DNA of 64,000 nucleotides from the NCBI GenBank assembly GCA_947172415.1, contig OX359201.1:2232001-2296000 (forward strand). Direction: 5' to 3'. The notes below the pieces were generated by a model. It did not search any database. It had not been told where the DNA came from and was given only the letters and a program-made list of their open reading frames with translations. The DNA comes from Chondrosia reniformis (Eukaryota > Porifera > Demospongiae > Chondrillida > Chondrillidae). Within the stretch, counting starts at the first letter, position 1, and every line of letters begins with the position of its first letter. The position numbers and the translations under genes are program-made. Of this stretch, positions 1 to 64,000 are shown piece after piece.

Positions 1-835
1 GGAGCGTGACAGAAAGGATTAACATGGTTAGGGAATTAGTGTGTGTACCTATTTATGATGTATAACAACATAAATTTTCAATTTTTGTCTATATATATAT
101 ATATATTTGTAGGTACATCAACTGTATATAGTCAGTGTATGTACATTGTGTTAAATATGTAAGGATATATATATAGCTGTAGAAACTATAATAAATCAAG
201 TGTATAGTGTAACTCGCGATCGTGCTGCATAAATGTTAACTAAAAGTAAAAGGGATTGTTAACTACAAGAGTAAGAGTGTGACAGAAAGAAGAGGTAGGT
301 TAGGAAAATAGTATATATCCTCTCAGAGGGAGTACTTCAAGCAAACAGAGACCCCACCCCCTAAATCTACCACTGTGCAAGATCAAGTTTACAAGATATT
401 AATACATTAAGTACAATTTTCTATATTATGTTATAGGTATTCACTTGTATATATTAGCACAGTAACGTTATTTAGTGATGTTGTGTGTATGTTCACTAAT
501 TAGAGTCAGTGTATATGACAATTATGTCAAATTTGTTGTTATATAACTGTTGTACACATTTTACTTATCTGAATCCTATATATAGTTTTACAGGAGATTT
601 ATAAGTGGGTTGGGATGTACTATAATCATAAACTTACTGCATGTGTGGTTTTACAGTGTATAGATATCTACATATGTATATATGTAGTTGGGAGATGTCC
701 TGAGAGATGTGACCACTCTGATCAAAGTGTACCAGAGTTGTACTGAATGTATGACTTGAACACACAACATGCAGCTCTAAATAGTATGTATATGCAGTTG
801 GGAATATGTATCTTATCAACGATTTACGTATATAC
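1..835 (-). other. 5' flank of a receptor copy lying left of the window
   Basis: This stretch matches the regions upstream of the start exons of the receptor genes inside the window, most closely 43778-44610. It carries the same shared blocks: the C-rich stretch around 350-380 and the block around 683-770 with the ATCAAAG word. No coding exon is visible. It shows that the minus-strand array continues beyond the left edge. The small minus-strand open frame here is not kept in other copies and I do not call it a gene. Confidence 0.65.
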
Positions 836-837
836 AG

Positions 838-1000
838 TGGAACACGTTTATAACTGACACGGATTTAACGAAATTTCGGTTGTAACGAAACGTTTTGAAA
901 AAACGGTTTTAGACAACTTCGGTTAACGTTTATAACGAAATTTTATGGGCGAATCTTGGAAAAATTCGTTTATAGCGATGCTTTCCTGGTCTTTCACATC
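838..1000. mobile_element. pogo/Tigger-type terminal sequence, MITE-like
   Basis: The sequence begins TA then CAGTGGAACACG and continues with AT-rich words related to TAACGAAATTTCGG, the style of pogo/Tigger-type termini. It marks where the flank shared with other copies is interrupted; shared sequence resumes near 1810. I could not find a clean matching right terminus, so the element may be partial or nested with the repeats that follow. Confidence 0.4.
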
Positions 1001-1210
1001 TTGTAGCCATAGAAAAGGAAATCAAGTAAGATGCGAAGGAGCTTGAAAATTGCAAAGTAAACTAACGAACTTCTTTAGTTACAGTCCTGCATGACATTCT
1101 ATAACTTGAAAATCGTACGTATACACAATCACGCGATCGTTTATAATTTATTTGGCAATGATGACAATGTACTACAAAAAACCGAACAAACGACTTAGAG
1201 TTAGAGTAAT

Positions 1211-1590
1211 GTATCAGAATTCGGCCACATCAGAATTCGGACGGCTTGTTCTCAGCAAGTATTAAAGGGACGAACCTCAAATGGATATTAAATTGTAGCC
1301 ACTTTTGAGAGAGACCAGCAGGCACGGTAAGAGGGGGCTGCGCCTCGGCTTCATCGAACACGAGCTGTTTAAGTGGGGTGGCCGAATTTAAGCAAAGTTC
1401 AGACGGTTTAATCAGAATTCGGACGAAAGCCTCTAGCGCCCTCAGTTTTGGACTGACATACTTGAATACTTCACAGCTGGTTGCTCTATCCTTCCCCTCT
1501 GACGTTGCCAGTTTTCATCGTGAAACGTTCAAGTTTGCGAAAATGCGAGCTCGATAACCACACCTAACAACATATAATCAGAATTCGGAC
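1211..1590 (+). repeat. dispersed ATCAGAATTCGG motif, four direct copies
   Basis: The 12-mer ATCAGAATTCGG occurs at 1213-1224, 1229-1240, 1411-1422 and 1577-1588. A partial inverted copy lies near 1382. The spacing is irregular (16, 182 and 166 bases). It lies in a stretch not shared with other copies of the array, so it belongs to the inserted material. Function unknown. Confidence 0.5.
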
Positions 1591-1684
1591 TATAGCTATA
1601 TATCTATACGAAGTTTCAACAGAACAAAAGAATACTTCACAGCATGGTAGTTCTATCCTTCCTCTACAAATTTCTTAACTTTCA

Positions 1685-1795
1685 ACGCATAACCTTTAAA
1701 ATCCAGGAAATGCGACGTTAAAATCAAGTCATATAATTAACTCACATATGACTTGATTTTAACGTCGCATTTCCTGGATCTTAAACGTTATGCGT
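1685..1795. repeat. foldback (inverted repeat) with about 50-bp arms
   Basis: The left arm at about 1685-1734 pairs with the right arm at about 1745-1795, with a spacer of about 10 bases and few mismatches. The arms contain TGCGACGTTAAAATCAAG and its reverse complement. No coding content is seen. It is probably a foldback-type or MITE end within the insertion at 838-1810. Confidence 0.8.
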
Positions 1796-2149
1796 ATGTG
1801 TACATATTTAGCAAGTTAAGTTACAATGTCATATAAGTGCTCATCCTTATAGCCAACTTCAGTAACTGCAACAAAGTATTCCTTTTGTGCTCAGAAGAGT
1901 TGAGGTATAGACTAGGCTAGGATTAAATGATAAGAAAATGGGGGAATTCTCACTAACAACAGTCTGCATATTTTGCACCGTAAAAGATTTAAAATATTCT
2001 GCTATCTACTTAACTACGTAATAATGTTGCATAAGGCTTTCTTTAATATCTTTTCAATATACTTTCAACAACAAGAAAGAGAATACAGATTATTAGAGCT
2101 TAAAACAGTTGTTTTTAATAGTAAATTCTTAGTACATAATGGACACTGT

Positions 2150-5100
2150 TCACGCACACTTTTCATATACAACTTCATTTGCACTGTCAGTTTTATCCTT
2201 TGTCATTGTAGAAACAGAAGCTGGGTTATGTTGTAGATCTACACCAGCACTGAAGGGGAAACAGAGGAAGTAGATACATATGGATTGCAATATTGCATTG
2301 TATGTATACTTTCACAAATAATCCTCTATATATGTCTTATCAGAGAGTATAGTCTTCCCTAAGGAGTAAAGATGGCAGAAAAACAGTATCTTATTCATCT
2401 TGGATGTCTATCATCTAAAAGTTGTAAAGAGGGAATATATAGGCAGCCTTAGGTTTGAAAACACTTTACATAATGCAAGTTAGTTCTGAGGGGATTGAAT
2501 TGGATTCTTTTTTAGCACACTATTTTTAATTAAAAATTCTTAATATCAATAATTGAATTCATAAATGTATACTCATTATATATGAATTCTATAAATTTTA
2601 GACTCCTTTATACTTGTTAGATTCTGTAATGTTTATGCATGTACATAACTAACTACATAAACCTTCATTCTATTGCATGTACGTACATGTTACATAACTT
2701 ACCACTTATATTCATTCTTATTCTTATTTTCTTCATGACTAAATCTCCTCTTTGTACTTCTCATGATAAGGACAAATATCACAACAGCAACAATAGAGGT
2801 TAGTACTGCACCTCCAAAGAAACCTCCAACAACTCCACCAACAACTATACCAACAACTCCACCAACAACTCCACCAATAACTCCACTTGTACAGTCACCC
2901 TTGATTGATGCAGCAGGTCCTATTTGTTAAATGTAATATATATTAAGACTACAAATCATTAAAAATACATTTTAAACCTTCATCCTATATACAGTAAAAC
3001 CTCTATTAACGGATACTCCCAATAGCGGACAGTCTCCATACAACGGACAGCATGCAATGTACCAACTTATTTTTATATACAATTAGTACATTGGCAACTC
3101 CAGAATAGCGGACAATCTCCAAATTACAGATAACGGACACTCTGCCCGAACTAAAGGACTTTTTGTAATACAAAAAACTCTTTTAACGGACAAAGAGGAC
3201 CTTATCTAGCTACGGTTGCAGTCAGAAAAAACTGAACAATTTCCATACGTAACGAGGGATACCTCTCACCAAGTATTGATGGAGCTATTAATAAAGTAAA
3301 AGCGTCCTATCGACTAATCTTGAATGTACTAACGAAGTAATGTACGTACGACTGAACCCGTTTCAGAAGCATTGTATACAGATATTTAGCTTTTATTATG
3401 AAAACCTCCCAGTATTGGCACCAACTTGTCCGTTATTGAGAGGTTTCACTGTATATACAAATCTACCAGCTATGTAGTGCAACTAATGAACAAAATAAAT
3501 AGTCAACTTACTCACTTTTATTATCATTTAAGGCAAGTTCTACAGACTGAGACTTTCCAACAGCATTCCCTGCTACAAGTGTGATGTAATATGTAGCATC
3601 TTCCACAAGTCCTGTTAAGTTGAAGTGTGTGTTGTTAGTTGTAATGTTAGTCACACTGCAAGTGCAAGTCTTGTCCATTGTATAACTCAATTCATACCAA
3701 GTAACTCCATCACATGTAGTTGGAGGTGACTCATCCCATTCAATGTAGAGAGATGTTTTTGCTTGTTCTGTCATTTTTCTCAATCCAATTGGATCATCTG
3801 GTGCTACACAGAATAGATAATGAAACCCTATAGTCAATGTTTACTAGCCAGTATCACAAAACCTTCAATGATGTATGATTATATACCTCTCTCTGTTCCC
3901 AAACAAATTTCAAGGACATTTGATGGCTCAGACAATGTACCAGTATCAGTGTTAGCTGAGTTGACTGCCCTCACTCTCATGTAGTATGTAGGGAACTCTG
4001 GTCCTGTCCAGTTGTAGTGTGTTGAGCTATTTTGAGTAAGTACAGTTCCACTGATTGTGGTAAAGGTACTGTTTGTAGTGTACTCAATCTCATAAGAAGT
4101 GATCACTCCATTTGGGTTAACAGGAGGTAGCCAGTTCAACTCAACTCCATTTTCGATATCTCTTGTATTTCTCAGCAGACATGGAGGACTAGGAACTGAA
4201 TAGAGAAATTGAATAACATAAATAATAGCTAGCAACATGTATATAAAATACATTCCCTCAGTGACATTAAACTCACTGTCATCTTCTGTTTTAACTGTCT
4301 TCTCTATGGGTTGACTGACTCCACTACCATCTGTAGCCCACACTCTAATCATGCATCTACTTCCAGCTTTCAGATTGTTCAGAGTAACACTTGTATTGTC
4401 AGATCCACCCAACCTCATGTAGGTTGGTGTGACTGGTACTGAGAAGTCCAGTCTTTCATAACTGATGTAATATCCAGAGCTTCCACTAACACTAGTCCAG
4501 TTGAGTGTAATGGAATGTTGAGTGAGTTGTGTCACTGACAGGTCATCAGTAGAAGTAAGAGAGGAAGTGTCTACAGCAAGATTATATATATCAACGTGCA
4601 TTCACTAAGGAATTTAAAGTCCTATATATACGTACATATAATTTAAAAAGGATTACTCCGTTAGCTACATATATAGCCACATATTATATATCAACATACA
4701 GTAAGATATATATAACAAGCTGCAAGTATATAAATATAAAAACATTTACACAAAAGCTATGTTAGAAATAGGAGTTCACTAGTACATCTGCAAAAGGTAT
4801 TGAAACAAGATACTCATTATATGATAAGGCTAATACAGAAGTTGCATATACGTAAACTGAAATTTAAGTAATTTAACCATACACGTCTGTGTTTGGGTGC
4901 ACCATTCCTACTTCAGCTTGCGCCCATAGTTAAGTTAAGTTACTGAATTTCAGCAACTTCTGTATGATTAACTGTGACAGCATCCCAAGATCAAAATAGC
5001 TAAAAATTTAAGGAATTCCAGAAATTTGCTTTACAGTCTAAAGAAATCACAGCAACTCAGAATAAGAGTGTATTAGATTTACTTCACTTTCTGTATTAAC

Positions 5101-6682
5101 TTGTTAATGCCGTATATCCTATTTTATCACAATTCACAATATATAAGCAAAAACTAATAGTAGAAAGTATAACATCGCCAAGTGTCCAAAGTCCAATCTT
5201 GGCTGGCGGACTGAATTCATATTAAATTGGCAACCAGTGATCTCCTCCCAGTCATCCAAGATGGAAACAATTCATCAAAGAACCACAGATAGCCTTTACA
5301 CAGCTCAATGTAATTAACTCCCTTTTTCATAATGTATAATAATTATGGTACAATATCAGTGGTTGCCTCTGGCAAAGGGGATACATATATACATACATAC
5401 ATACATACATACATACATACATACAAAAATGGTTTGCTAGCTGTTTGCAAACCTACTGTGTATTGTGTACAAAAATGCAATATTACATGAAAAAACATTA
5501 TACATAATGCTAACTTGGATTGACAAACATTCCAAACCATGCTGTCCTCTGATTTCCTTGACAGTAGAATTCTTTATTTGAAGGATTATTTTCAATTATT
5601 CTTGTTAACTGATTAAACCTACTTTGAGTGCTATAATATGCTGTATAAGGATAAGTATGACCTTGGTAGTGAGAGGGCACTTCAGTTCCATTTCTATAAT
5701 ACCATGACACTTTACTTGCACCACTACTATAACAGAGGACACGATATTTAGTATTCCTTCCTATTAATATTGGAGTCCCATCAGTGACAAAACTGTTTCT
5801 TGGAAAGTAGATTCCAGGATACTGTGACCTTGGTTTGTAATATATGGACACACCAGCTGTAAATAAACATATGGACTCGAGGTAGTGTGTGTATATTAAA
5901 ATTACAGTATATTTACAGGTACACCATTATTATGTATATTAATAAATACGTATATATGCACAGTAACAGTATGAGACTGGTACAGTGCATCATCTACGTA
6001 TATAATTAACCTTCTCCATTAAGCATGATTATAAACAATACCATACAGCCTTAAGAAATGATTGAACATTAAAGTCCAACTTGCATATAAACTCTATTAA
6101 ATGGCAATCATACAAAGAAATAAACAAACCTGTACCACTGATCCTGTGAGTATCACTCCCCAGTATCACTCCATCACTTCTATTAGATACATTACACTGG
6201 TAGTCTCCATTATCCCATTCCTTTACTATATCCACTACTACTGTGTTGTTGTACTGCCTCCTTGAACCATGCCGTGATGGTTCTGATGGATTGTCACAAG
6301 TACGTCCACTAGCACATGTCCAGCTGTAAGTCAGTTCACTTCCATAAGGTACTCCAACCACTCTACACACCAAAACCACTGTTGTTCCTTGCTCCACTTC
6401 AGTAGAGTTTGGATAAGCATCGATTTTAACTGTGAAACACAAATGCCATCGGATATTATACAGTATATAGCTGTAATTTATGATATATCGAACGAGTACT
6501 CTGTAGTAGCTCTTCTTACCTTGGATGTCGCCTGGTCGGGAAGAGGAAACTTGACCGATTAAAAGACCTGAAGGAAATTGAACTAACAGTTTTACGTAGT
6601 TATAATATTTATACATAAAACGCCTGTAAGATTTACCTTCGACGAAGAGTGTGACAATTATTCCTGCGTAGTAAGTTGCCAT
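2150..6682 (-). CDS. Receptor A: Ig-Ig-FN3x3 single-pass membrane protein
   Basis: Predicted cell-surface receptor of 647 aa. Exons, 5' to 3': 6637-6682, 6520-6567, 6130-6429, 5515-5856, 4277-4570, 3887-4195, 3516-3803, 2703-2919, 2150-2249. They sum to 1944 nt with no stop before the terminal TGA. Residues 1 to about 22 form a signal peptide (MATYYAGIIVTLFVEG, then LLIGQV). Ig1 spans 32-131 (Cys, Trp in YSWTC, Cys in GDYQC), Ig2 132-245, FN3 domains 246-343, 344-446 and 447-542. The TM exon (543-615) has the longest Gly-Val repeat in the array. The tail reads NPASVS where other copies have NPAYAS, so the NPxY tyrosine is lost; VVYEKC remains. A MITE lies in intron 7. Ligand unknown. The family is not one I can name; domain calls are firm and function is inferred. 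Confidence 0.85.
2992..3451. mobile_element. 460-bp MITE with TA target duplication in receptor A intron
   Basis: The element starts CAGTAAAACCTCTATTAACG and ends with the inverted GAGAGGTTTCACTG. TA flanks it at 2990-2991 and 3452-3453. The ends resemble Tc1/mariner-pogo-type MITEs. It sits between the third FN3 exon and the TM exon of receptor A and is missing at that place in other copies, so it inserted after the duplication. It has no coding capacity. Confidence 0.85.
4833..4965. mobile_element. small foldback/MITE in receptor A intron
   Basis: ATACAGAAGTTGC at 4833-4845 is matched by its reverse complement at 4953-4965, and the inner sequence is also partly complementary. It lies in the intron between Ig2 and the first FN3 exon. 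It is non-coding, about 133 bp. Confidence 0.55.
5391..5424. repeat. (ATAC)n microsatellite
   Basis: A run of about eight ACAT/ATAC tetranucleotides just downstream of the Ig2 exon of receptor A, within the intron. The Tyr-Val-Cys-Met open frame across it is an artefact of the repeat. Confidence 0.95.
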
Positions 6683-7500
6683 TCTTATCTAGTTAACGAT
6701 CAACAATAATAAAATGCAATAGGAACTGTAAACTCTTTTAAGTGTAGCTGTAGGAACAATAATAAATCACGTGTGTAACTCGTGCTGCATGCACTAGCAG
6801 ACTCAGGGATAAACAAGGGATTTAGGAAATTAGTATAAACATACGTATCTATATATTCTATTTTTCTATTTAGTATATAAAGGGGGATTACAAATTACAA
6901 GCTATGTAGGAGTGTGATAGAAAGTATAGAAGAGGTAGGTTAGAAAAATAATGCTCTCAGAAGGAGTACTTCAAGCACCCAGAAACCCCACCCCCTAAAT
7001 CTACCACTGTGCAAGGTCATTACAAGATGTCAATACATTAAGTACAATTTTCTATATTATGTTATAGGTATTCACTCTTATATATAATCAGCACAGTGAT
7101 GTTATATACGTATATAGTGATGTTGTGTGTATACATATGTTCACTAACTAGAGTAAGTGTATATGACAATTATTATTAGTATATAACTGTTGTACACATT
7201 GTTTACCAAATCCTATATGGTTTTACAGAACATAAGTGTGGATTGGGATGTAATATAAACTCTGTGCATGGTTTTACAGTGTATATATAAACCTATGTAT
7301 ATATGTAGTTGGAAATGTCCGGCCATTCTCATCAAAGTGTACCTTAATAAACTGAATGTATGTCTTGAACAGCAGTGAATGGTATTTATAGTATATCTAT
7401 ATATGTGTATGCATGCAGTTGGGTACGTATACACATACATATTTGATTTATTGCTACATTTTTTAATTTTTGTTAAGAAATATTTTACTTGAGTAATCTA
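6683..7500 (-). promoter_or_regulatory. 5' flank of receptor A with conserved CACGTG and ATCAAAG blocks
   Basis: A CACGTG E-box lies at 6768-6773, 86 bases upstream of the ATG. It sits in a context (TTATTGTTCC on the coding strand) kept in copies B, D, E, F, H and I. A C-rich block follows at about 6990-7020. A second shared block at about 7300-7375 contains ATCAAAG, the core TCF/LEF-type word. Conservation between copies is visible, but partly reflects recent duplication. Promoter function is inferred and no transcription start can be fixed. Confidence 0.45.
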
Positions 7501-9270: not shown

Positions 9271-9277
9271 GTTTCAT

Positions 9278-14753: not shown

Positions 14754-15706
14754 TCATGTACACTTTTCATACATAACTTCATTTGCACTGTCAGTTTTAT
14801 CCTTTGTCATTGTAGAAGCATAAGCTGGGTTATGTTGTAGATCTACACCAGCACTGTAGGGGAAACAGAGGAAGTAGACATATTATACGGATTGCAATAT
14901 TGAGTAGTAGAGTAGTATTCCTTAAGTATTGCAATACCTGCAAGAGTGACATTACTGTTGCAGACATTGTCATCCCTAATTCTATATTCATTGCTTAAAT
15001 GATGTTTATATATTCATAATCAAATAATTGAATTCTTAAATGTATACTCAATATATATTAATTCTATACGTATAAGCCTTAATCTAGACTCCTTTTTACA
15101 GTCTTAAATTTCATATGCATGTACATGTTACATAACTTACTATCTATATTCATTCTTATTCTTATTTGCTTTATGATTAAATCCCTTCTTTGTACTTCTC
15201 ACAATGAGGACACATATGACAACAGCAAAAATGGAGGTTAGTACTGCACCTCCAAAGAAACCTCCAACAACTCCACCAACAACTCCACTAGTACAGTCAC
15301 CATTGATTGATGCAGCAGACACTATTTGTTTATGCAATATATATTATACAATTATTAAAAAGTATATATACAGAATAGAAAATATAAGGGACAAAACATT
15401 TTAAATTATATGTAACAAATATTATACACAAATCTAGAGACAATAGTGTAACTTAAGAACACACTAAAATTAATAATGCATAGGCAACTTGCTCACTTTC
15501 ATTATCAAGTTCTACAGACTGAGACTTTCCAACAGCATTCACTGCTACAAGTGTGATGTAATATGTAGCATCTTCCATGAGTTTTGTTAACTTGTAGTGT
15601 GTGTTGTTAGTTGTAATGTTAGTCACATTGAAAGTGCAAGTCTTGTCCATTGTATAACTCAATTCATACCAAGTAACTCCATCACATGTAGTTGGAGGTG
15701 ACTCAT
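14754..15706 (-). pseudogene. Receptor C: 3' half only (partial FN3, TM, tail)
   Basis: Exons present: partial third FN3 exon 15497-15706, TM exon 15141-15321, optional 56-nt exon 14938-14993, tail exon 14754-14853. The FN3 exon is cut at the duplication junction near 15706, where sequence switches to a receptor 5' flank. There is no start codon, signal peptide, Ig domain or acceptor for the FN3 exon. TM and tail frames are open, with NPAYAS kept. It is a by-product of the tandem duplication and is not expected to make a surface receptor. Confidence 0.8.
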
Positions 15707-17495: not shown

Positions 17496-18182
17496 ATTCA
17501 GACTATATGAAGATCCACTTTATATACATGTATAGTTATATACTATATATCATAAACAAAATATTTTATATGGACCCATGCAATGGTCAGAGGATGAAGC
17601 ATATTATATATACCAAACTTAATAGGTAAGAACAATTTCAGGAGTTCAAAATAGGAATAGGTATGCAATCATGCATAGAATGTCTGGTTTATCTCTTTAC
17701 ATGTTTGCCTTCCTTAGTATAGTCAAGTTATAGAAGGTCTAAACCTGGTAAACAGTCTCACTGAATAATGAAAGAGTAACAAGTCTGAATCCTCAAATAA
17801 ACCCATTTTATATAATACCTAATCCCAGCCTATATGCGTGCATATGCTCAATAAAGTCTAGTATGTGCATGTATAGAAAAGTTCATTAAACATTTAGTAA
17901 ATGGTAATCAAAAAGTAATAAAGTATTACCTTAATGTTTAGCTTTTAGTGGTTTTAGTTAAGTGTGTGGTTACTATAGTTCACTCACAGAATTAAGGCAT
18001 TTCATTGGCTATAATTTGGTATTCCCTAACCATTTAAAAAAAATTAAAGTGTGTCTTTTAAATGTACATGCACATTCAAAAGTGACAAAGTACATACAAT
18101 TATTTTTTCATTAAATTCCAATGAAAATGAAGAGTCGTGATCCGTACATAAGTCATGCTAACCACTTACCAGCAAATCAGCA
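17496..18182. other. 5' flank of GPCR-like gene 2
   Basis: AT-rich sequence shared with 13003-13680 and 35947-36640. It may hold the promoter of the GPCR-like gene, but I see no defined motif that I would call. No gene. Confidence 0.4.
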
Positions 18183-20049: not shown

Positions 20050-22235
20050 CTTAAATGATGTTTATATATTCATAATCAAATAATTGAATTCTTAAATGTA
20101 TACTCAATATATATTAATTCTATACGTATAAGCCTTAATCTAGACTCCTTTTTACAGTCTTAAATTTCATATGCATGTACATGTTACATAACTTACTATC
20201 TATATTCATTCTTATTCTTATTTGCTTTATGATTAAATCCCTTCTTTGTACTTCTCACAATGAGGACAAATATGACAACAGCAACAATGGAGGTTAGTAC
20301 TGCACCTCCAAAGAAACCTCCAACAACTCCACTAACAACTCCACCAACAACTCCACTAGTACAGTCACCATTGATTGATGCAGCAGACACTATTTGTTTA
20401 TGCAATATATATTATACAATTATTAAAAAGTATATATACAGAATAGAAAATATAAGGGGCAAAACATTTTAAATTATATGTAACAAATATTATACACAAA
20501 TCTAGAGACAATAGTGTAACTTAAGAACACACTAAAATTAATAATGCATAGGCAACTTGCTCACTTTCATTATCAAGTTCTACAGACTGAGACTTTCCAA
20601 CAGTATTCACTGCTACAAGTGTGATGTAATATGTAGCATCTTTCATGAGTTTTGTTAACTTGTAGTGTGTGTTGTTAGTTGTAATGTTAGTCACATTGTA
20701 AGTGCAAGTCTTGTCCATTGTATAACTCAATTCATACCAAGTAACTCCATCACATGTAGTTGGAGGTGACTCATCCCATTCAATATAGACAGATGTTGTT
20801 GTTGCTAGTTTTGTTATTTCTCTCAATCCTATTGGCTCACTTGGTGCTACACAGAATAGTTCATGGTGATTTATATAGATCATTGACATTACGCAATAAA
20901 TGATAATTAAACATTCATCTCTGTGAGTGAATCAGTGAGGAGAGTAAAATATACGTATGAAAGTGGTTACTGATATGATTATATACCTCTCTCTGTTCCC
21001 AAACAAATTTCTAGCACATTTGATGGTTCAGACATTGTACCAGTATCAGTGTTAGCTGAGTTGACTGCCCTCACTCTCATGTAGTATGTAGGGAACTCTG
21101 GTCCTGTCCAGTTGTAGTGTGTTAAGCTATTTTGAGTAAGTACAGTTCTACTGATTGTGGTAAAGGCACTGTTTGTAGTGTACTCAATCTCATAAGAAGT
21201 GATCACTCCATTTGGATTAACAGGAGGTAGCCAGTTTAATTCAACTCCATTTTCAATATCTCTTGTAATTCTCAGCAGACTTGGAGGACTAGGAACTGAA
21301 TAAAGAAACATATATTCACTAGGTTATGTAGTTATAGTTTTACATTAAAATCACTGTCATCTTCTGTTTTAACTGTCTTCTCTATGGGTTGACTGACTCC
21401 ACTACCATCTGTAGCCCACACTCTAATCATGTATCTACTTCCAGCTGTCAGCTTGTTCAGAGTAACACTTGTATTGTCAGATCCACCCAACCTCATGTAG
21501 GTTGGTGTGACTGGTACTGAGAAGTCCAGTCTTTCATAACTGATGTAATATCCATAGCTTCCACTAACACTAGTCCAGCTAAGTGTAATGGAATGTTGAG
21601 TGGAGTTGTGTCACTGACAGGTCATCAGTGGAGGTGAGAGAGGTGGTGTCTACAGCAAGATTATATATCAGCATGCATTCACTAAGGAATTTAGAGTCCT
21701 ATATGTATACATATAATTTTATAAAGGGTTACTCTGTTAGCTATATACGTATAGCCATCTGTACATGTGCAGTTTCATAAAAATGTTTCTGCAATAATTG
21801 AAACTGACCTGGATAGAAACATTCATATCAATATGTAGTAAGTTATATGTAATAGGAAATTTGGAGTGTGGCTGAGTATAGAAGTATTATTATAGATAGT
21901 GTGGACTTTAGTATATAATATTTCGTTATTAGGTGATGGGCTATAATCAATTAATCAATCATTTATAAAATGGCTAGAAAACATTTATGGTCTTGATAAT
22001 ACTAAAACGGATATATACCCTATCAGCATTTGAGCAGGAATTCCAGAAACTTTCTTCAGGGTCTCTAACTATTACCGGCAAGTAAGAAAACCAATTGCAA
22101 AGCATAAGGTTTACTACAATTCCTCTATTATCGCAATATATCCTATAATCAGTGATTCACAATATATATGGTAGATAATCCACCATTATTAGCTTGTTAC
22201 CCTGGCAATGGGAGAAATATATATATTTATACCCT

Positions 22236-29123: not shown

Positions 29124-31255
29124 TATAGGCAGACTTAGGTTTGAACACACTTTACATACGTAATGCAAGTTAGTTCTGAGGAGACTAAAGTTGGATAGTG
29201 TTAGCACACTATTTATAATTATGAATTCTTGGTTATCTGCTTTTATCATTACAGTAACTACTTAATATTCCAGATATGCTAACTAGCAATATATACTTGC
29301 AACAGTGACATTACCGTTGCAGGCATTGTCATCCCTAATTCTATATTCATAGCTTATTTTACTTGTACATATATCAATTGAATAATTGAATTCATAAATG
29401 TATACTCATGTTATATATGAATTCTATAAGCCTTCCTTTTATACTTTTTAAATAATTTATTGTTCATGCACGTACACAACTCACTACGTATGTTCATTCT
29501 TATTCTTATTTTCTTTATGATTAAATCTCTTCTTTGTACTTCTCATGATTAGGACATGTATCACAACAGCAACAATGGAGGTTAGTGCTGCACCTCCAAA
29601 GAAATCTCCAACAACTCCACCAACAACTCCACTAGTACAGTCACCGTTTATTGATGCAGCAGACACTATTTGTTAATGCAATATATATTAAGAATACAAA
29701 ACAATAAAAATACACTTTAAACCTTCATCCTGTATATACACAAATCTAGCAGCTACGTAGTGTAACTGTAATGAACATAATAAATAATGCATAGTCAATT
29801 GCTCACTTTCATTATCACTTAAGGCAGGTTCTACAGAATTAGACTTTCCAACAGCATTCACTGCTACAAGTTTGATGCAATATGTAGCATCTTCCACAAG
29901 TCCTGTTAAGTTGTAGTGTGTGTTGTTTGTAATGTTAGTCACATTTCAAGTCTTGTCCATTTTATAACTCAATTCATACCAAGTAACCCCATCACATGTA
30001 GTTGGAGGTGACTCATACCATTCAATGTAGACAGATGTTGTTGTAGCTTGTTCTGTTATTTCTCTCAATCCTGTTGGATTATCTGGTGCTACACAGAATA
30101 GTTCATGGTGATTTATGCATATCATTGACATAACACAATAAATGATAAACATTCATTTCTGTGAATCAGTGAGGAGAGTGAAATATATGAAAATGGTTAC
30201 TGATGATTATATACCTCTCTCTGTTCCCAAACACATTTCCAGCACATTTGAAGGCTCAGATATGGTACCAATATTAGTGTTAGCTGAGTTGACTGCCCTC
30301 ACTCTCATGTAATATGTAGGGATTTCTGGTCCTGTGCAGTTGTAGTGTGTTAAGCTATTTTGTGTAAGTTCAATTCCACTGATTGTGGTAAAGGTACTGT
30401 TTGTAGTGTACTCAATCACATAAGAATTAATCACTCCATTTGGGTTAATAGGAGGTAGCCAGTTCAACTCAACTTGATTTCCAATATGTCTTGTAATCCT
30501 CAGTAGACGTGGAGGACTAGAAACTGAATAGAGAAACAGATTCAGTTATGTAGTTATAGTATTTGAATAATGTAAATAATAGCTAGAAATTACATAGTGC
30601 AACATATATACAAAATACATTCCCTCAGTGATGTAGTTATAGTTTTACATTAAACTCACTGTCATCTTCTGTTTTAACTGTCTTCTCTATGGGTTGACTG
30701 ACTCCACTACCATTTGTAGCCCACACTCTAATCATGTATCTAGTTCCAGCTGCCAGCTTGTTCAGAGTAACACTTGTATTATCAGATCCACACAACCTCA
30801 TGTAGGTTGGTGTGACTGGTACTGAGAAGTCCAGTCTTTCATAACTCATGTAATATCCAGAGCTTCCACTAACACTAGTCCAGATGAGTGAAATGGAATA
30901 TTGAGTGAGTTGTGACACTAAAAGGTCTTCAGTGGAAGTAAGAAAGGTAGTGTCTACAGCAAGATTATATATATCAATGTGCATTCACTAAGGAATTTAA
31001 AGTCCTATACGTACATATAATTTAAAAAGGATTACTCCGTTAGCTACGTATATAGCCATCTGTACATGTGCAGTTTTGTAAAAATGCTTCCGTAATAGTA
31101 CATGAAAACAAAAATGCATCTTAGATAGAAACATTCATATCAATATGTAGTAAGTAATAGGATGTTTGGTGTGTGGCTGAGTATTATTATAGCTCGGAAG
31201 TGTGGACTATAGTTTAGTATAATTATTTCGGTAGACATATTAGTTGATGGGCTAT

Positions 31256-34330: not shown

Positions 34331-35946
34331 TTAAAATGCGAAGAGAGGTTGGAAAGAGGGAAAAAACACCAGCCAACCCTCAGCTGTTAACACTATGTCC
34401 TCTAAAAGTGCTTCTTCGGCACCATCTCCCTCAGGCAAAGCTTCAGTGATGACTACTGGAACAATTTGACCAATAAAGCTTATTTTATTGCCAATTACAA
34501 GGAACAGAGTAAACCTTACAAGAGTCTTTTGTGACTTTAAGTCACCTGAAATGCTTCTGTGTCTTATGTAGAGGCACGACAATATGGGAATAACAATTGT
34601 CACTGCATAACTTAAAATACCATAAAGGAAGATGTACATTATTAGAAAAGGAAGTCCACCTTCATCATCCAGAGTAGGTGAACAGGTAACATTCTTGGCA
34701 ATTGTAATAGTAATAACCTGCAGCTGAGGACTCCAAACCACTGCATTTAATGAGATATTAATGACCCATATCATGCAAACAGTCAGCACTACATACCTCA
34801 GTACTACTCCATTGTGGCCATACCTTACAAACAGGAACACTACCACAGTGAAAACTGCCATAAATGAAAATCTGCAAGTTCCTCCACTTAAGTCATCATC
34901 ATCATCATCATCATTCAATAATGGCAAAAATCTCCTATGCAGGAGGTAGCCTGATATACATAGAGTTCATGTTCCTTAGTCAAAATATTAGCTATAGATG
35001 AGTCATTTATTTAAAATTATCTGTCCACCGCTTCTTTGGTCTTCCTCTAGGTCTCTTTTCTGTCATTTCTTCTTCATACACTTGCTTCACCAATCGGTCT
35101 GCATTCATTTCCTCCATCTTCACCTTCCATCTTCTTTGCTTCTCCTTCACCATATCTACTACTGCTTCCTGTCCAAGTGATCTCCTCACATCTTCATTTC
35201 TAACTCTGTCCAGCCTTGACACACCTTCCACTCTCCTTAAAAACATCATTTCAGATGCTTGTAACTTGCTTTCATGTCTTCTCTGCATGGTCCAGGTCTC
35301 GCAACCATAGATGAGGGTAGGCACCACCATTGCATTGAATACCCTCAACTTTGTTTTCTTCAGTAACTCTCTTCTTTCCAGCACCTCCTTCCTCATAGCA
35401 CCTACCACCTTTGCTGCTGCCCCCACGCGCTGTTCAATTTCTTCATCACATAACCCATCTGAACTGATCATTGCTCCTAGGTACTTCAGCTTCTTGACAG
35501 TTTCAATGTCTTCACCTTCTATGTTCAGGTTACAATCCTCTTCTGTCCTGCTCACCATCATCACCTTTGTCTTCCCCAAGTGCATCTTCATTCCCCACTT
35601 ATCCATCACTTTCTTCATCTCACCCAAGTTTGTCTGCATATCTTCCTTCTTCTCCACTTAAGTACATCCAAGTAAAGATGCGACAAAGGTGTTCTGAAGG
35701 TTTGACATACAGGTTAGTGGCTGATATAATGACATCAGCAGTATTGAATATTACTCCACTCAACCCAACAGTAATATTAGCAGCCAGGAGGTTGAACATC
35801 AGAAGGTGCACAGGCTTTGGAAAAGTAGACTCTCTTAGAATCATAAGCTGGACTAAAAGTATGCCAGGAATAAGGAGAACTATCAATTCAACCAAAGCAC
35901 CAACTCTGAACCTTTCCTGATAGGGACTAGAGAGATTTGTATTCAT
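34331..35946 (-). pseudogene. GPCR-like receptor, copy 4, split by a LINE insertion
   Basis: The N-terminal part (MNTNLSS to WMYLSG, helices 1 to 3) lies at about 35652-35946. The rest (SGGTCRFSF onward, helices 3 to 7) lies at 34331-34892. Between them sits a LINE fragment with an 11-bp target duplication. Without the insertion and one target-site copy the frame would match copy 1, so this gene was whole when hit. As it stands, the first part reads into the LINE and stops. Confidence 0.85.
34893..35651 (-). mobile_element. 5'-truncated RTE-type LINE fragment
   Basis: Target duplications CTCCACTTAAG at 34882-34892 and 35652-35662 flank 759 bp. On the minus strand an open frame of about 210 aa (35007-35651) encodes the C-terminal part of a non-LTR reverse transcriptase: LKYLGAMISSDG, LIYGCETWTM, then RPRGRPKKRW at the end. 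The 3' end is a (TGA)n run of seven repeats, typical of RTE-type elements. The intact frame and clean target duplications point to recent insertion. Confidence 0.85.
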
Positions 35947-42291: not shown

Positions 42292-42305
42292 GTTGCCATG
42301 GCAAC
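42292..42305. promoter_or_regulatory. perfect X-box dyad in receptor F intron
   Basis: GTTGCCATGGCAAC, identical to the receptor E site. A second related site, CGTTACCCTGGCAATGG, lies near 42251. Confidence 0.45.
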
Positions 42306-56439: not shown

Positions 56440-59400
56440 TCACGTACACTTTTCATACACAACTTCATTTGCACTGTCAGTTTTATCCTTTGTCATTGTA
56501 GAAGCATAAGCTGGGTTATGTTGAAGATCTACACCAGCACTGTAGGGAAACAGAGGAAGTATATATGAATAATTAATAAAAGGCATCATCATCATCACTA
56601 ATCCTATCTTCATTTTTTAAAAGTCTTTATTTTACTAGTATGTATATACACACCATAATTGAATTGTCACTTCTTAATTTTATATATCATTTCTGCATGT
56701 ACATAACTTACTACGTATATTCATGTTTATTCTTCATTTCTTTATGATTTAATCTCTTCTTTGTACTTCTCATGATGAGGACAAATATCACAACAGCAAC
56801 AATGGAGGTTAGTACTGCACCTCCAAAGAAACCTCCAACAACTCCACTAGTACAGTCACCGTTGATTGATGACACTATTTGTTAAGGTAATATATATTAT
56901 ACAATTATTAAAAATACATTTTAAACCTTTATTCACAAATCTAGCAGTTATATATAGTGTAACTAATGAACAAAACAAATATCAACTTTCTCACTTCTAT
57001 TATCATTTAAGACAAGTTCTACAGACTGAGACTTTCCAACAGCATTCACTGCTACAAGTGTGATGTAATATGTAGCATCTTCCACAAATACTTTTAAGTT
57101 GTAGTGTGTGTTGTTAGTTGTAATGTTAGTCACATTTACAGTGAAAGTCTTGTCCATGGTATAACTCAGTTCATACCAAGTAACTCCATCACATGTAGTT
57201 GGAGGTGACCTATCCCATTCAATGTAGACAGATGTTGCTGTTGCTTGTTCTGTCATTTCTCTCAATCCTGTTGGCTTATCTGGTGCTACACAGAATAAAG
57301 TATATGGAATAATCAGTATACTATTAAGAAACATTGTAACAAATGCAGATCATTGACATTACATAGAGTGGAAGGTGTAAACATTCACCTCTCTAGTACA
57401 GTCACTGCACTGTATATATGATAGTCAGTATCACAAAACCTAAAATATTCATTTACTGATTCCATAGTTAAAAAATTAAATACACTATCATTTATGCTAT
57501 TAACAAATGGCAATATATTATATACAATGCCCCTTTACATTATTCACTGATTTACTATGAACTACGTACATATATATACGACATTCCACTCCAGATAATG
57601 TCTAAGTAAGATTTACAGTGTATGTACTAAATAATTACTTAAGTACTTAACTTAACTTAAATAAAGTCAGTGAATCAGGCCAGTTAAAATATATGAATGT
57701 GGTTTCTGATATAATTATATACCTCTCTCTGTTCCTAAACAAATTTCTAGCACATTTGATGGCTCAGACATTATACCAGTATCAGTGTTAGCTGAGTTGA
57801 CTGCCCTCACTCTCATGTAGTGTGTAGGGAACTCTGGTCCTGTCCAGTTGTAGTGTGTTGAGCTATTTTGGGTAAGTACAGTTCCACTGATTGTGGTAAA
57901 GGTACTGTTTGTAGTGTACTCAATCTCATAAGAAGTGATCACTCCATTTGGATTAACAGGAGGTAGCCAGTTCAACTCAACTCCATTTTCAATATCTCTT
58001 GTAATCCTCAGCAGACGTGGGGGACTAGGAACTGAATCAAAAACATATATTCACTAGGTTATGTAGTTATAGTTTTACATTAAACTCACTGTCATCTTCT
58101 GTTTTAACTGTCTTCTCTATGGGTTGACTGACTCCACTACCATCTGTAGCCCACACTCTAATCATGTATCTACTTCCAGCTGTCAGCTTGATTAGAGTAA
58201 CACTTGTATTGTCAGATCCACCCAACCTCATGTAGGTTGGTGTGACTGGTACTGAGAAGTCTAGTCTTTCATAACTGATGTAATATCCAAAGCTTCCACT
58301 AACACTAGTCCAGCTGAGTGTAATGGAATGTTGAGTGAGTTGTGTAAGTGATAGGATTTCAGTGGAGGAGAGAGAGGAAGTGTCTACAGCAAAAATATAA
58401 TATTTATAGAGGCGAGTACTACAGCTGAGTATATGTATAATAATTTGGGCAGAAGTCCAACTATACTTAATATTATATCTACATCCCATTGTGACAGCAT
58501 TCGAGCATCCCAGGATCAAAATGGCTAAAAATTTAAAGGAATTCCAGTTTTAACATAAATTTAAAATTTACAATAGATGGATACAATAATATGTGATTGC
58601 TGTTACTGTATTATTATTATTTCTAATGTGCTCTAATAATATAAGTCTTTGCACAAATTGTTTTGAAATTGAAAGGAATTCCAGAAATTTGCTTCTGGGT
58701 CTAAAGAAATTATGGCAACTAAGAAAAGGAATAGATTTTCTTTACTTCCTTGCTAATGCCTATATATTCAGCGATTTATACTGTATATGGCAGATAATCC
58801 CCCTATATCATCTTGTTGTAATTGGGGATATACCTACAATTAATATATGCTAGCTATTTACAAACTGTATTAAATTGTGTGGTTCTGTAAAATGCACATT
58901 CTCCAATAGTACATAATGCTAACTTGGATTGACAAAAATTCCAAACCATACTGTCCTCTGATTTCCTTGACAGTAGAATTCTTTATTTGAGGGTTTCAGA
59001 GAAATTATTCTTGATAACTGATTAGACATACCTTGAGTGTTATAATATGCTGTATAAGGACCTGAGAAGGGCACTTCAGTTCCACTTCTATAATACCATG
59101 ACACTTGACCTGCACCACTACTGTAACAGAAGACACGATATCTAGTATTCCCTTCCACTAATATTGGAGTTCCATCAGTGACGAAACTGTTTCTTGGAAA
59201 GTAGATTCCAGGATACTGTGAACTTGTTTTGTAATATATGGACACACCAGCTGTAAACAAGCATATGTAAGTAATAGTAGAACGCTTTCTTTGGACGATC
59301 AAGCACGCCAATAAATCACGTATAGATCACTTTTAATGCAATGTTTCGCATGGGCTGTGTATATGTTTATTTACAGAGTACACCATTATTATGTATATTA

Positions 59401-60248
59401 ATAAATACATACATATGCACAGTAACAATACATGTGTATGTAATACTTAGAAATTGGTCTAAGGAATATCAAATATACTATTTAAAAGAATACAATACTG
59501 GCTTATTATATATATACGTAGGTACATTTGAGACCGTCCAACATCTATATAATTAACCTTCTCATTAATCCCACTAAGCATTTTTCAAAACAACATCCAT
59601 ACAGCCTTAAGAATTGCATGAACATTAAAGTTCAACTGAGTATTAAACGTTATTATATGGCAATCATACAAAGAAGTAAACAAACCTGTAACACTGATCC
59701 TGTGAGTATCACTCCCCAGTATCACTCCATCCCTTCTATTAGATACATTACACTGGTAGTCTCCACTGTCCCATTCCTTTACTATATCCACTACTACTGT
59801 GTTGTTGTACTGCCTCCTTGAACCATGCTGTGATGGTTCTGATGGATTGTCACAAGTACTTCCACTAGCACATGTCCAGCTGTAAGTCAGTTCACTTCCA
59901 TAAGGTACTCCGACCACTCTACACACCAAAACCACTGTTGTTCCTTGCTCCACTTCAGATATGTTTGGATAGGCATCAATCTTAACTGTAACATTAACTG
60001 TGAAGCACATATATACCATCAGATATTAATTCTACAACACGTACAAAAGTGTAATTTGTGATATACTTTCTAACGCGTATTCTGTAGTAGATCGTCTTAC
60101 CTTGGATGTTGCCTGGTCGGGAAGAGCAAACTTGGCCAGTTAAAAGACCTGAAGGAAATTGATCAAATGATTTAGTTATTCCATAAAACGCCTAAGATTT
60201 ACCTTCGAAAAAGAGTGTGACAATTATTCCAGCGTAGTAAGTTACCAT
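56440..60248 (-). CDS. Receptor I: Ig-Ig-FN3x3 single-pass membrane protein
   Basis: The most compact complete copy, 625 aa. Exons, 5' to 3': 60203-60248, 60101-60148, 59686-59985, 58924-59250, 58090-58383, 57723-58031, 56995-57285, 56712-56874, 56440-56539 (1878 nt, no stop). Signal peptide MVTYYAGIIVTLFFEG plus LLTGQV; Ig1 32-131 with Cys, Trp and the GDYQC Cys; Ig2 132-240 with variable patch EVPFSGPYTAYYNTQG; FN3 domains 241-338, 339-441 and 442-538. The TM segment is about 550-573 after a short GVVGGFFGG. The stop-transfer RSTKKR is basic, and the tail carries NPAYAS and VVYEKCT. Two residues (AA) are missing before INGD in the TM exon. Several N-x-T sequons lie in FN3-3 (NVTNITTNNTHY). 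Function is inferred: surface recognition or adhesion. Confidence 0.88.
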
Positions 60249-61686
60249 TCTTAACTAGTTAACGATCAACAACAATAATAAAATGCAATAGGAACTGTAT
60301 AAACTGATTAAAGTGTAGCTGTATGAACAATAATAAATCACGTGTGTAACTCGACTCAGGACGGTCTAGAATTTGTAAAGAGGAGCGTGACAGAAATGTT
60401 ACATCAAGTCAGTGTATGTACATTGTGTTAAATATATAAAGATATAGCTGTATATGGGAACTATAGTGTAACTCGTTATTATATATTCCTGCGTAGTAAG
60501 TTGCCATTCTTATCAAGTTAACGACCAATAATTATACAACAATAGGAACTGTAAACAGTTTTAAGTATAGCTGTAGGAACAATAATAAATCAAGTGTAAC
60601 TCGTGCTGCATGCATTATATCGCAGACTCAGGGACGGATCATTAGTAAAGAGGATTGTTAACTACAAGAGTAAGAGTGTGACAGAAAGAAGAGGTAGGTT
60701 AGGAAAATAGTATATATCCTCTCAGAGGGAGTACTTCAAGCAAACAGAGACCCAATCCCCTAAATCTACCTCTTGTGCAAGGTCAAGTTTACAAGATGTT
60801 AATGCATTAAGTACAATTTTCTATATTATGTTATAGGTATTCATTCAAATAATCAGCACAATAATGTTATATAGTGATGTTGTGCGTATGTTCACTAACT
60901 AGAGTCAGTGTATATGACAATTACGTATGTCAAATACGTTGGTATATAACTGTTGTGCACATTTTATTATTATATATTACTTATCCGAATCCTATATATA
61001 GTTTTAGAGAAGATTTATAAGTGGGTTGGGATGTAATATAAACTTACTGTGTGGTTTTACAGTGCATGTATCCACTATGTATATGTATGTAGTTGGGAGA
61101 TGTCCTGAGAGATGTGGCCACTCTGATCAAAGTGTACCAGAGTTGTGCTGACTGAATATGTATACATCAAATTAATGTTTACAACACTAGCCAACAATTC
61201 ATTACTTGTAGTAGCTTAATATTATATGTATATATCTATTGCTATCATCAACTATATAATCATGAGTATATACTTGACATATCATTAAAATTTTTAATAG
61301 TTTACATTTTAGCAGATACTCTTACGTATATGTATGTAATATACATAAGAGTACACTGGACTAAACTGATAAACTGCAGCTGGACATTTTTTTCTGATGC
61401 AATACTTCCATTCACATGCACATGGTCAAATGAATTCAATTAATACACTATTTTAGAAATACTTTATATAGCCTTTCATCAATATGTTATGTCAGATAAC
61501 AGATTCTTCACACCAATACGTATGTAGCCAATAAAGATGTCTAAGCAATGTTTTGTCATACTCATAATATATATAAAAGTAAATTAAAGTCAAAACATTT
61601 CAATATAACATGATCTCATATGCATATATGTTATTGAGGATATATATAAAGAAATCATAACAATACCATAAAGGTCCTCACACAGA
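60249..61686 (-). promoter_or_regulatory. receptor I 5' flank with a second, partial flank copy
   Basis: CACGTG at 60339-60344, 91 bases from the ATG. A second copy of the flank begins near 60480, with a broken start exon, the C-rich block near 60750 and the ATCAAAG block at about 61088-61155. From about 60780 it matches 24100-25700 but lacks the 730-bp insertion found there. No complete gene. Confidence 0.45.
60487..60507 (-). pseudogene. orphan start exon fragment
   Basis: ATG with MATYYAG and about the first half of the signal peptide, then divergence with no donor. A remnant of another receptor start that recombined with the flank of receptor I. Confidence 0.65.
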
Positions 61687-62230
61687 TGTATTGCAAAACT
61701 TCTGTGTCTTATGTAGAGGCACGACAATATGGGAATAACAATTGTCACTGCATAACTTAATATGCCATAAAGGAAGATGTACATTATTAGAAAAGGAAGT
61801 CCACCTTCATAGGTGAACAGGTAACATTCTTGGTAATTGCAATAGTAATAACTTGAGGACTCCAAGCTACTGCATTTAATGATATATTAATGACCCATAT
61901 CATGCAAACAGTCAGCACTACATACCTCAGTACTACTCCATTGTGGCCATACCTTACAAACAGGAACACTACCACAGTGAAAACTGCCATAAATGAGAAT
62001 CTGCAAGCTCCTCCACTTACAGTACATCCAAGTAAAGATGCGACAAAGGTGTTCTGAAGGTTTGACATACAGGTTAGTGGCTGATATAACGAGGTCAGTA
62101 GTATTGAATATTAATATAAGGTAAAGATGCAATATACCAGTATATGTATGTAAATGTATATATTGTGAGAAAACCAATAGGAAAATGTACATGTATATGA
62201 AAATTTCATAAAATTTAGTAATTGGCAATC
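61687..62230 (-). pseudogene. GPCR-like receptor, copy 5, truncated at both ends
   Basis: Related to copy 3 (25740), with the same loss of helices 1 and 2 and the same extra base inside helix 3. In addition helices 6 and 7 are deleted (junction near 61697), and about 10 bases are lost near 61808 in the loop before helix 5. It shares its ancestry with copy 3 and is not expected to make a receptor. Confidence 0.8.
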
Positions 62231-62474
62231 GAAAAGTAATAAAGTATTACCTCACTGTTTAATGTTAGCTTTTGGTGATTTTGGGTAAGTGTACATGTGT
62301 GGTTACTATAGTTCACTAACAGAATTAAGGCATTTCATTGGTGCTAAATTGAAGAATATAATAGTGTTCCCTTATTTATATGTGTCTGTTAAGTGTGAAT
62401 GTACATTCAAAAATGACAAAGTATAATTATTTTTCTCCTTATATTCCATTGAAAATGAAGAGGAATGTATTGTT

Positions 62475-63465
62475 GTGATCTTTAAATAGTTCATGCCAAC
62501 AATGAATCAACAAGTTGAGCAGGCATGAAAAAGTCATTATATAGGTTTTAAATATACATGTATACATACATATGTTTAACCAATGTAAGATTGACATCTC
62601 ACGGTTAGTTTTAAACCCCACATATACCTATATTAACTGTAGTAAATTAATTGGAAAATGAGATATTCATATAATAATGACTTGGGAAGTGGCTTTGATC
62701 ATATATTATTACATAATATGATCAAAGCCACTTCCCATACATTTTCAACCATGAAGCTTACTACAGTACTTTAAGTAGTTAATGCAGTGGTTGATGTGAA
62801 ATATTTATGATATAAAGGCAGACTGCAGCTACAGATTCATCTTCAAAATACAATGTCATGATCATATATATAAGTGCTTGTTCTACCTTAGACAACTTCA
62901 GTAACTGCAATAAAATTAAAATATTCTGTTTGTGCTGAGAAGAGTTGAGGTAGACTAGGTTAGGGTGAAATGCTGTGATCCTTTAATAGTTCATGCCAAC
63001 AATGAATCAACAAGTTGAGCAGGCATGCAAAAAGTCATTATATAGGTTTTAAATATACATGTATACATACATATGTTTAACAAATGTAAGATTGACGTTA
63101 TCTCACGGTTAGTTTTAAACCCCACATATACCTATATTAACTGCAGTAATTTAATTGGAAAATTTAGACTTGGGAAGTGGCTTTTGATCATAATATTATT
63201 ACATAATATGATCAAAGCCACTTCCTATACATTTTCAACCATGAAGCTTACTACAGTACTTTAAGTAGTTAATGCAGTGGTTGATAGGAATGATATAAAA
63301 GCAGATTGCAGATTCATCTTCAAAATTCAATGTCATGATCATATATATAAGTGCCCGTTCTACCTTATAGACAACTTCAGTAACTGCAATAAAAATAAAA
63401 TATATAAAATATTCTGTTTGTGCTGAGAAGAGTTGAGGTAGACTAGGTTAGGGTGAAATGAAAAG
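62475..63465 (+). repeat. tandem duplication, 500-bp period
   Basis: TCATGCCAAC recurs at 62491 and 62991, an exact 500-base spacing, and the flanking sequence matches throughout both units. Each unit carries the GATCAAAG dyad (62685-62735 and 63173-63225). The related locus at 26840-27340 has one unit. Confidence 0.9.
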
Positions 63466-64000
63466 AAAATAGGAAAAAAGAAAAAATTCTCACAAACATC
63501 AGTCTGCATATATTGCACCGTACAAGATTTAAAATACTCTGTTATCTACTTAACTAGTACTGTTGTATAAGGCTTTCTGCTAACTGCCTCGAACTTATTT
63601 TTTGAAAGGATTATTATTCGACTTCTAGAGCATCTGAAGACGTAGTTTTTGTCTGATTTAGAGACAACAAAACTGTGATGATATCCTATCAAAAGATAGT
63701 ACCGTTGCATTAGCTACTTTTAAATTGCTTTATGTACTTAACACCAAAATGGAATAAGAACTCATTCAATTTTTATATTTTGACATGTACAGGTTCCATG
63801 CTAAAGTGATTGATTTCACTTTCTAAAGTATCTGAAAGATAAAACAAAGTATAATACCATAATAAAATTTACATACTTACATAAATATTATAACATATTT
63901 CATTAATATCTTTTTAATATAGCAACAAGAAGAAAAATTAACACTCTGAGAATACAGATTAGTAGAGCTTAAAATAGTCGTTTTTAACAGTTATTACTTA
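63466..64000. other. 3' flank of a receptor copy lying right of the window
   Basis: Matches 27300-27850, which ends about 30 bases before the tail exon of receptor E. Another receptor tail exon is therefore expected just beyond 64000, and the array continues to the right. Confidence 0.7.
63590..63705. mobile_element. second copy of the small MITE at 27455
   Basis: Same inverted-repeat ends and same position relative to the next receptor tail as at 27455-27562, so it was carried by segmental duplication. Confidence 0.5.

Follow-up and report, generated by a model that had tools for sequence, protein, structure and literature searches.

The Receptor Array on Chromosome 13

The stretch of DNA analyzed here, C13:2232001-2296000 on chromosome 13 of the kidney sponge Chondrosia reniformis (64,000 nucleotides, hereafter the window; coordinates preceded by w are positions within it), is the middle of a tandem array of receptor genes with immunoglobulin (Ig) and fibronectin type III (FN3) domains, which we call array A and which occupies about 180 kb (C13:2177677-2356603). 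The genome that we read has 117,379,552 bases in 15 contigs of one haplotype, with C13 contributing 6,903,244 bases, and the odChoReni1.1 assembly is described as 14 chromosomes plus the mitochondrial genome, with a chromosome 13 of 6.9 Mb and an alternate haplotype deposited as GCA_947172445.1 (PMC12181767). Array A holds 25 receptor gene segments on one strand, spanning 2177677-2354486, although segments 2 and 3 may be a single locus with an internal duplication. Nine of the 25 are intact, one of them (copy 22) with an altered tail end, and copy 19 was scored among the other 16 because its transmembrane (TM) exon could not be spliced. As the original prediction had proposed, both edges of the window continue the array, by 54 kb on the left and 61 kb on the right, in 204 kb of joined sequence with no N. 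The division of the nine window receptors into three intact, three lesioned, and three truncated copies was likewise borne out by spliced models, all on the minus strand:

w56440-60248, minus strand: intact receptor 9, nine exons, 625 amino acids, with GT/AG sites and an open spliced frame
Receptor 9, first exons, minus strand: E1 60248-60203, E2 60148-60101, E3 (Ig1) 59985-59686, E4 (Ig2) 59250-58924
Receptor 9, remaining exons, minus strand: E5 58383-58090, E6 58031-57723, E7 57285-56995, E8 (TM) 56874-56712, E9 (tail) 56539-56440
w49022-55521, minus strand: intact receptor 10, nine exons, 632 amino acids, with three fn3 and one Ig_3 Pfam matches above the cut-off
w45714-46946, minus strand: truncated receptor 11, E1-E4 only, with a stop in E3
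w37710-43633, minus strand: lesioned receptor 12, with no TM exon E8 located from E7 to E9, an interval that holds a reverse-transcriptase-like open reading frame (ORF)
w27881-33310, minus strand: lesioned receptor 13, stop codon in FN3-3 (E7)
w19810-23754, minus strand: lesioned receptor 14, frame lost in FN3-1 (E5)
w14754-15778, minus strand: truncated receptor 15, part of E7, then E8 and E9
w8779-11136, minus strand: truncated receptor 16, in which a tail segment with E9 comes straight after E1-E3; a second E9 is also present
w2150-6682, minus strand: intact receptor 17, nine exons, 647 amino acids, with NPAS in place of the NPAY tail motif

The window exons are 82–100% identical to the query copy in gapped blastn, far beyond chance, and the ectodomain exons of the whole array are mostly 84–98% alike to it. 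Clustered Ig receptors with pseudogenes, a feature of allorecognition loci of the Alr/FuHC kind, are present here, and the proposal that the Ig/FN3 receptors evolve by birth and death is well supported. A single tail fragment on the plus strand lies outside the window at C13:2337470.

To what had been predicted we add the leader, TM, and tail exons of the gene, a second array, and the relation between the two arrays. Array B lies about 225 kb from array A, at 1.627-1.951 Mb of C13, with 22 Ig1 places (19 on the plus strand and 3 on the minus strand). Of the 85 matches that the Ig1 protein gave across the genome, 21 fall in array A and 22 in array B, one lies on C4 (73% identity), and the other 41 are weaker. 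Such match counts being lower bounds, the family has at least 44 Ig1 exons at 73% identity or above: those of the two arrays, which share a chromosome, and a single copy elsewhere.

Receptor Gene Model and Domains

The receptor gene has nine exons: E1-E2 encode the leader, E3 Ig1, E4 Ig2, E5-E7 three FN3 domains, E8 the TM segment, and E9 the tail. This model was built from the GT/AG splice signals, conservation, and open spliced frames; with the latter agrees our reading of the intron phases, which are phase 1 from E1-E2 through E7-E8 and phase 2 at E8-E9. The intact array-A genes are therefore predicted to encode type I membrane proteins with a leader, Ig1, Ig2, three FN3 domains, a TM segment, and a short tail. 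In support of these assignments, Ig1 matches Pfam Ig_3 at 40 bits against a cut-off of 30 (32.6 bits on the full receptor), the three fn3 matches of receptor 10 are above the cut-off, and receptors 9, 10, and 24 have a single C-terminal hydrophobic segment, with a stop codon after the tail. The tail is near-constant within array A and carries the tyrosine motifs NPAY and VVYEKC, named by eye; NPxY motifs bind PTB adaptors.

Ig2 gave no Pfam match above the cut-off, and its profile search of the PDB gave a best E of 1.6, which is not credible. Nevertheless, Cys41 and Trp51 are invariant in the seven window copies, and Phe92-Tyr93 is kept and followed by a Cys in six of the seven, while an AlphaFold model of one copy (w22609-22935) is all-beta with eight strands, at low confidence (pLDDT 48.5). 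From these invariant residues and this poor model we call the domain Ig-like, its fold not being proven.

Two further observations concern the ends of the gene. At the start of E8, before the helix, a 12-base repeat encoding GVV steps varies in number among copies (w2826-2886, 15264-15288, 20322-20358, and 29608-29632). In the C4 copy and six copies of array B, the 362–399 bases read upstream of Ig1 contained no E1/E2 leader.

Variation and Selection Across Exons

The variable domain of these receptors is Ig2, and the remainder is more constrained apart from FN3-3. Among the 17–20 open array-A copies per exon, leaving out exon copies with stops or with less than 80–90% coverage, and copy g18 also from E5, the nonsynonymous divergence (dN) was highest in Ig2, at 0.115 (an example of this exon is the E4 of receptor 9, w58924-59250, minus strand), against 0.046–0.051 in Ig1, FN3-1, and FN3-2, with FN3-3 at 0.089. 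The ratio of dN to synonymous divergence (dN/dS) was 0.54 in Ig1, 0.89 in Ig2, 0.60 in FN3-1, 0.49 in FN3-2, and 0.96 in FN3-3 (19, 17, 17, 20, and 17 copies, respectively). In the nine intact copies, the corresponding omega values were 0.54, 0.99, 0.47, 0.47, and 1.20, with 0.43 for the TM exon and 0.22 for the tail; the range of 0.43–0.54 shared by Ig1, FN3-1, FN3-2, and the TM exon has upper bounds of 0.82–0.97.

Ig2 varies near its start, ahead of the first Cys, and from the Trp to the E-strand, and little in YFPRNSFVTDG and at the C-terminal end; its length changes are mostly in-frame. Ig1 varies block-wise over a run of four residues after DIV.

Mosaic History Within Array A

The exons of one array-A gene appear to carry different histories, that is, the sequence comparisons show a reticulate history of the array. 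Segmental blocks of 0.9–8 kb at 96–99% identity run through it, two of them joining to about 12 kb; the closest partner copy switches along genes, and many tiles have no partner above 90%. Among comparisons with one flank at least 95% identical, the exon fell at least 3 points below that flank in 9 of 14 for Ig1, 3 of 5 for Ig2, 4 of 19 for FN3-1, 3 of 17 for FN3-2, 1 of 9 for FN3-3, and none of 6 for the TM exon. The pairwise distances of different exons are uncorrelated in Mantel tests (10 of 10 with p > 0.05), a null result that noise on a star-like tree could produce by itself, and four-gamete counts alone do not separate recurrent mutation from recombination. Linkage disequilibrium (LD) decays over distance within Ig1 (p 0.002) and within Ig2 (p 0.012) of array A and shows no such decay in E5-E8; with array B added, the decay is still significant for Ig1 (0.0045) and not for Ig2 (0.31). 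Between exons, the mean r2 is 0.072 vs. 0.056 under no association. In approximately unbiased (AU) tests, none of five exons accepted the tree of any other (20 of 20 rejected, p ≤ 0.0024), and the SH test rejected all of these cross-exon comparisons but one, that of E8 data with the E7 tree (0.087). Given that a control with interleaved halves of the same exons was also rejected in 5 of 10 cases, the AU p-values are too small and only the larger likelihood gaps carry weight, these being 33–112 across exons vs. 15–61 in the control. Copy A18 was dropped from the LD, intron/Fst, AU, and AU-control analyses.

When analyzed by exon, a GENECONV-type permutation test gave no significant pair in E3, E4, E6, E7, or E8 and 12 of 300 pairs in E5; each of the five pairs printed for this exon includes A18, a copy with a frameshift there.

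Exon-limited gene conversion inside array A was considered and rejected. It had been suggested by un-anchored flanks of 100–120 bases that looked unrelated next to exons up to 94–95% alike, and it failed the intron control; the GPCR-like gene described below gives the same un-anchored flank pattern as the receptor exons. What is left is the contrast between the arrays, itself only partly free of the difficulty that indels pose for anchored introns.

Relation Between the Two Arrays

The exons of the gene differ in how far they separate array A from array B. For Ig1, FN3-1, and FN3-2, dS between arrays is 0.096, 0.097, and 0.119, about as within arrays, with no fixed differences; for Ig2 (0.204, 3 fixed) and FN3-3 (0.133, 2 fixed), it is as within array B and above that within array A. 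The TM exon has a dS of 0.307 between arrays vs. 0.165 and 0.207 within them, with 6 fixed differences. The Fst values are 0.08–0.11 for E3-E6, 0.20 for E7, 0.44 for E8, and 0.35 for E9, even the low ones being nonzero (p ≤ 0.0045). Anchored introns mismatch at 0.19–0.32 between arrays, where shuffled sequence gives about 0.33; for three of the introns, only pairs within 60 bases of each other in length were compared. Taken together, the different histories of the exons of one gene, and ectodomains weakly and TM exons strongly differentiated between arrays, point to exchange among copies. Exchange of ectodomain exons between the arrays is our preferred reading of these sequence comparisons, although it is not proven. 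The lone divergent relative at C4:2008903-2011536 (L023) stands much nearer to the arrays in FN3-1 (dS 0.12) than in Ig2 (0.46).

GPCR-like Genes, Mobile Elements, and Neighbors

Interleaved with the receptors are genes resembling G-protein-coupled receptors (GPCRs). The five GPCR-like places predicted in the window are all there, and none of the five is open over its full length:

w12160-13026, minus strand: GPCR-like copy, frame broken near TM7, at about residue 276 relative to the open copy; 7tm_1 E 2.3e-4
w16659-17519, minus strand: GPCR-like copy with the same TM7 break, a tandem duplicate of w12160-13026 (98.9% over 2.7 kb)
w25790-26472, minus strand: GPCR-like copy without about the first two TM segments
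w34254-35946, minus strand: GPCR-like copy split by an insertion with a weakly reverse-transcriptase-like ORF at 35010-35657 (RVT_1 17.8 bits, cut-off 29.6)
w61692-62114, minus strand: GPCR-like fragment
2355650-2356603 (the query) and 2315863-2316804, both outside the window: open GPCR-like copies

In array A as a whole, there are 13 such places, and close copies give one more on C9. Two of the 13 are open over at least 316 residues of the 318-residue query, and the open copy, which has a start of its own, encodes seven hydrophobic segments. The 7tm_1 match of w12160-13026 is below the cut-off (21.2 bits vs. 30.5), the open copy matched no Pfam family at E up to 1, and the protein had no match in the PDB. 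A dN/dS of 0.27 in seven open, ungapped cores indicates that the gene was constrained in the past, and the two open copies may have a function. None of the 114 scored matches of this gene fell in array B (C13 1.62-1.96 Mb). The idea that there is meaning in two unrelated receptor families being amplified together thus found no support: the gene is probably a passenger of the array-A duplication unit, hitch-hiking in it without an array-B match, so its pairing with the receptors needs no special explanation. A displaced unit at C9:4207025-4214472 (L024 in part) keeps the array-A order, with receptor E8-E9, the GPCR-like gene, FN3 exons, and another tail.

Mobile elements have also entered the array:

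w38521-40401, minus strand: reverse-transcriptase-like ORF inside lesioned receptor 12

This ORF may be Penelope-like; it has no Pfam match at E up to 1, and a 97.7% copy at C13:2173573-2175609 indicates that it was recently mobile. Elsewhere, a reverse-transcriptase fragment lies in the second intron of receptor 10 (w53958-54260), a CENP-B-type DNA-binding fragment just below the Pfam cut-off lies between E8 and E9 of receptor 13 (w28595-28930), and a 283-base unit is repeated three times in tandem, 99% alike, downstream of receptor 14 (w18183-19013). To the right of the array, ORFs with Death and KH domains alternate at L021:2206-6182 and L022:2269-3519 (Pfam E 1.7e-13 and 3.1e-11; 4.1e-26 and 5.3e-24) and are followed by a laminin N-terminal ORF at L022:4704-5294.

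A Proposed Recognition Array and Its Alternatives

We suggest, with slightly better than even confidence, that this is a receptor array in turnover and exchange, with a variable Ig2 and a constant tail, that serves recognition. Turnover proceeds by segmental duplication in blocks of 1–12 kb, truncation, and loss of frame, and copies appear to have exchanged pieces. The receptors would sit at the cell surface and bind a variable partner mainly through Ig2, this partner being either the receptor of another cell or a microbial ligand, and the tail would pass on a common signal by tyrosine phosphorylation or adaptor binding. New Ig2 surfaces would thereby arise through duplication and exchange, with the output kept unchanged by the tail and with recognition as the selective cause. 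The array may thus be regarded, from its sequence, as a candidate for self/non-self or microbe recognition in sponges.

Several of our own results weigh against this proposal. The omega interval of Ig2 is 0.65–1.55 and no exon is significantly above 1, so diversifying selection is not demonstrated, and FN3-3 evolves as fast as Ig2 (omega 1.20, 0.72–2.42). The Ig-like character of Ig2 comes without a Pfam match and with a poor model, as given above. Regarding the mosaic history, the AU control was rejected in half of its cases, the GENECONV-type test on concatenated exons found none of 171 pairs significant, and the anchored introns of array A mismatch at 0.10–0.18, with many indels, which is about the synonymous divergence and means that there is no exon-limited homogenization there. 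Regarding exchange between arrays, the conclusions on array B rest on six of its 22 Ig1 places (four for E8 and three for E9), the tail exon E9 has a dS of 0.114 between arrays that is not raised, its difference being mostly in amino acids (dN 0.145, 2 fixed), the shortest intron, the 53-base one between E5 and E6, mismatches at 0.185 between arrays vs. 0.191 within array B, and the mismatch of longer introns may be inflated by indels.

Among the alternatives, the one that survives best is that these are microbe-facing innate receptors of a symbiont-dense sponge and not receptors for self, a possibility that we hold tentatively, at clearly less than even confidence, and which overlaps with our own proposal, since the latter leaves the partner open. 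It is favored by the description of C. reniformis as a high-microbial-abundance sponge (PMC12181767) and by the reported response of Ig-containing genes to microbial signals in three other sponges (PMC8242945).

A relaxed and largely neutral tandem family, in which adhesion receptors would multiply by unequal crossing-over under weak constraint on Ig2 and FN3-3 and with no role in recognition, seems unlikely to us, albeit a serious contender. The omega values near 1 in Ig2 and FN3-3 with no significant excess, as well as the 16 of 25 copies that are not intact (copy 19 only for its unspliced TM exon), speak for it. The constraint on Ig1, FN3-1, FN3-2, and the TM exon, with omega bounded below 1, speaks against it, as do the invariant Cys41 and Trp51 of Ig2, its mostly in-frame length changes, and the near-constant tail.

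We consider it improbable that the array owes some of its copies to an assembly artefact in which sequence of the other haplotype entered as false duplicates. Blocks 134–138 kb apart are indeed collinear and 96–99% identical, and four haplotypic duplications are described as removed by hand in the assembly (PMC12181767). However, many tiles lack a close partner and partners switch along genes, the 204 kb are free of N, and the primary assembly has a reported consensus quality of 69.8 (PMC12181767). Finally, a single adhesion-GPCR-like protein made of the Ig/FN3 exons and the seven-TM gene, suggested by the GPCR-like gene often following the receptor's last FN3 exon on the minus strand, is hardly credible, because the receptor gene includes a TM exon and an in-frame stop of its own, the open GPCR-like copy has a separate start and shows seven hydrophobic segments, and 13 GPCR-like places stand against 25 receptor segments in array A, with none among the matches in array B.

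Returning to the recognition proposal, a bolder extension, which we think doubtful, is a sponge histocompatibility complex in which both arrays, largely of opposite orientation, would share a pool of ectodomain exons by ectopic exchange while each keeps its own TM segment and tail, coupling a surface for recognition that changes to two fixed outputs.

Comparison with Known Systems and Significance

The best solved relatives of the receptor by sequence are LAR-type receptor phosphatases, contactins, DSCAM, fibronectin, and titin, which have Ig and/or FN3 domains, although the PDB matches (27 sequences) are weak, with E from 1.6e-12 to 8e-4. Unlike the LAR-type phosphatases, the sponge receptor has no phosphatase domain, and the vertebrate genes of all these proteins are not known to form tandem arrays. 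The KIR receptors of primates are not known to have FN3 domains, have known ligands, and carry activating and inhibitory tails. Their cluster resembles array A in its tandem genes, and gene conversion, domain shuffling, copy-number change, and minisatellite sequence are named for it (PMC5103432). The Sp185/333 genes of sea urchins are described, similarly, as clustered and alike immune genes with segmental duplications and mosaic coding sequence, but with another gene plan of two exons and a general lack of pseudogenes (PMC5103432), in contrast with the many copies of the sponge array that are not intact.

It is reasonable to liken the array to allorecognition and innate receptor clusters by its architecture and evolution. 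In the Hydractinia allorecognition complex, likely pseudogenes are reported among 44 gene models in the 2024 genome, and the Alr proteins show low overall identity to each other (PMC11067881), in contrast to the closely alike ectodomain exons of array A. The stalk of three FN3 domains is also unlike Alr as described, and polymorphism and a fusion phenotype are reported for Alr1/Alr2 (PMC11067881), whereas the sponge array is described from its genome sequence. Closer at hand, the sponge SRCR/Ig/FN3 proteins and Ig-TIR receptors also use Ig or FN3 domains, but these are described as carrying SRCR or TIR (PMC4772301, PMC8242945), and Pfam shows neither on receptor 10. The open-licence literature that we searched by titles and abstract starts named no sponge Ig/FN3 receptor array, subscription papers being mostly outside this scope.

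To our knowledge, the genes behind self/non-self recognition in sponges are not settled. With a defined interval of the chromosome that contains intact copies, a variable domain, and a constant tail, this question becomes directly testable, in a species that offers both a chromosome assembly and a deposited second haplotype for such testing. If this is confirmed, sponges would join cnidarians and vertebrates in having arrived at clustered and exchanging Ig receptors as a solution.

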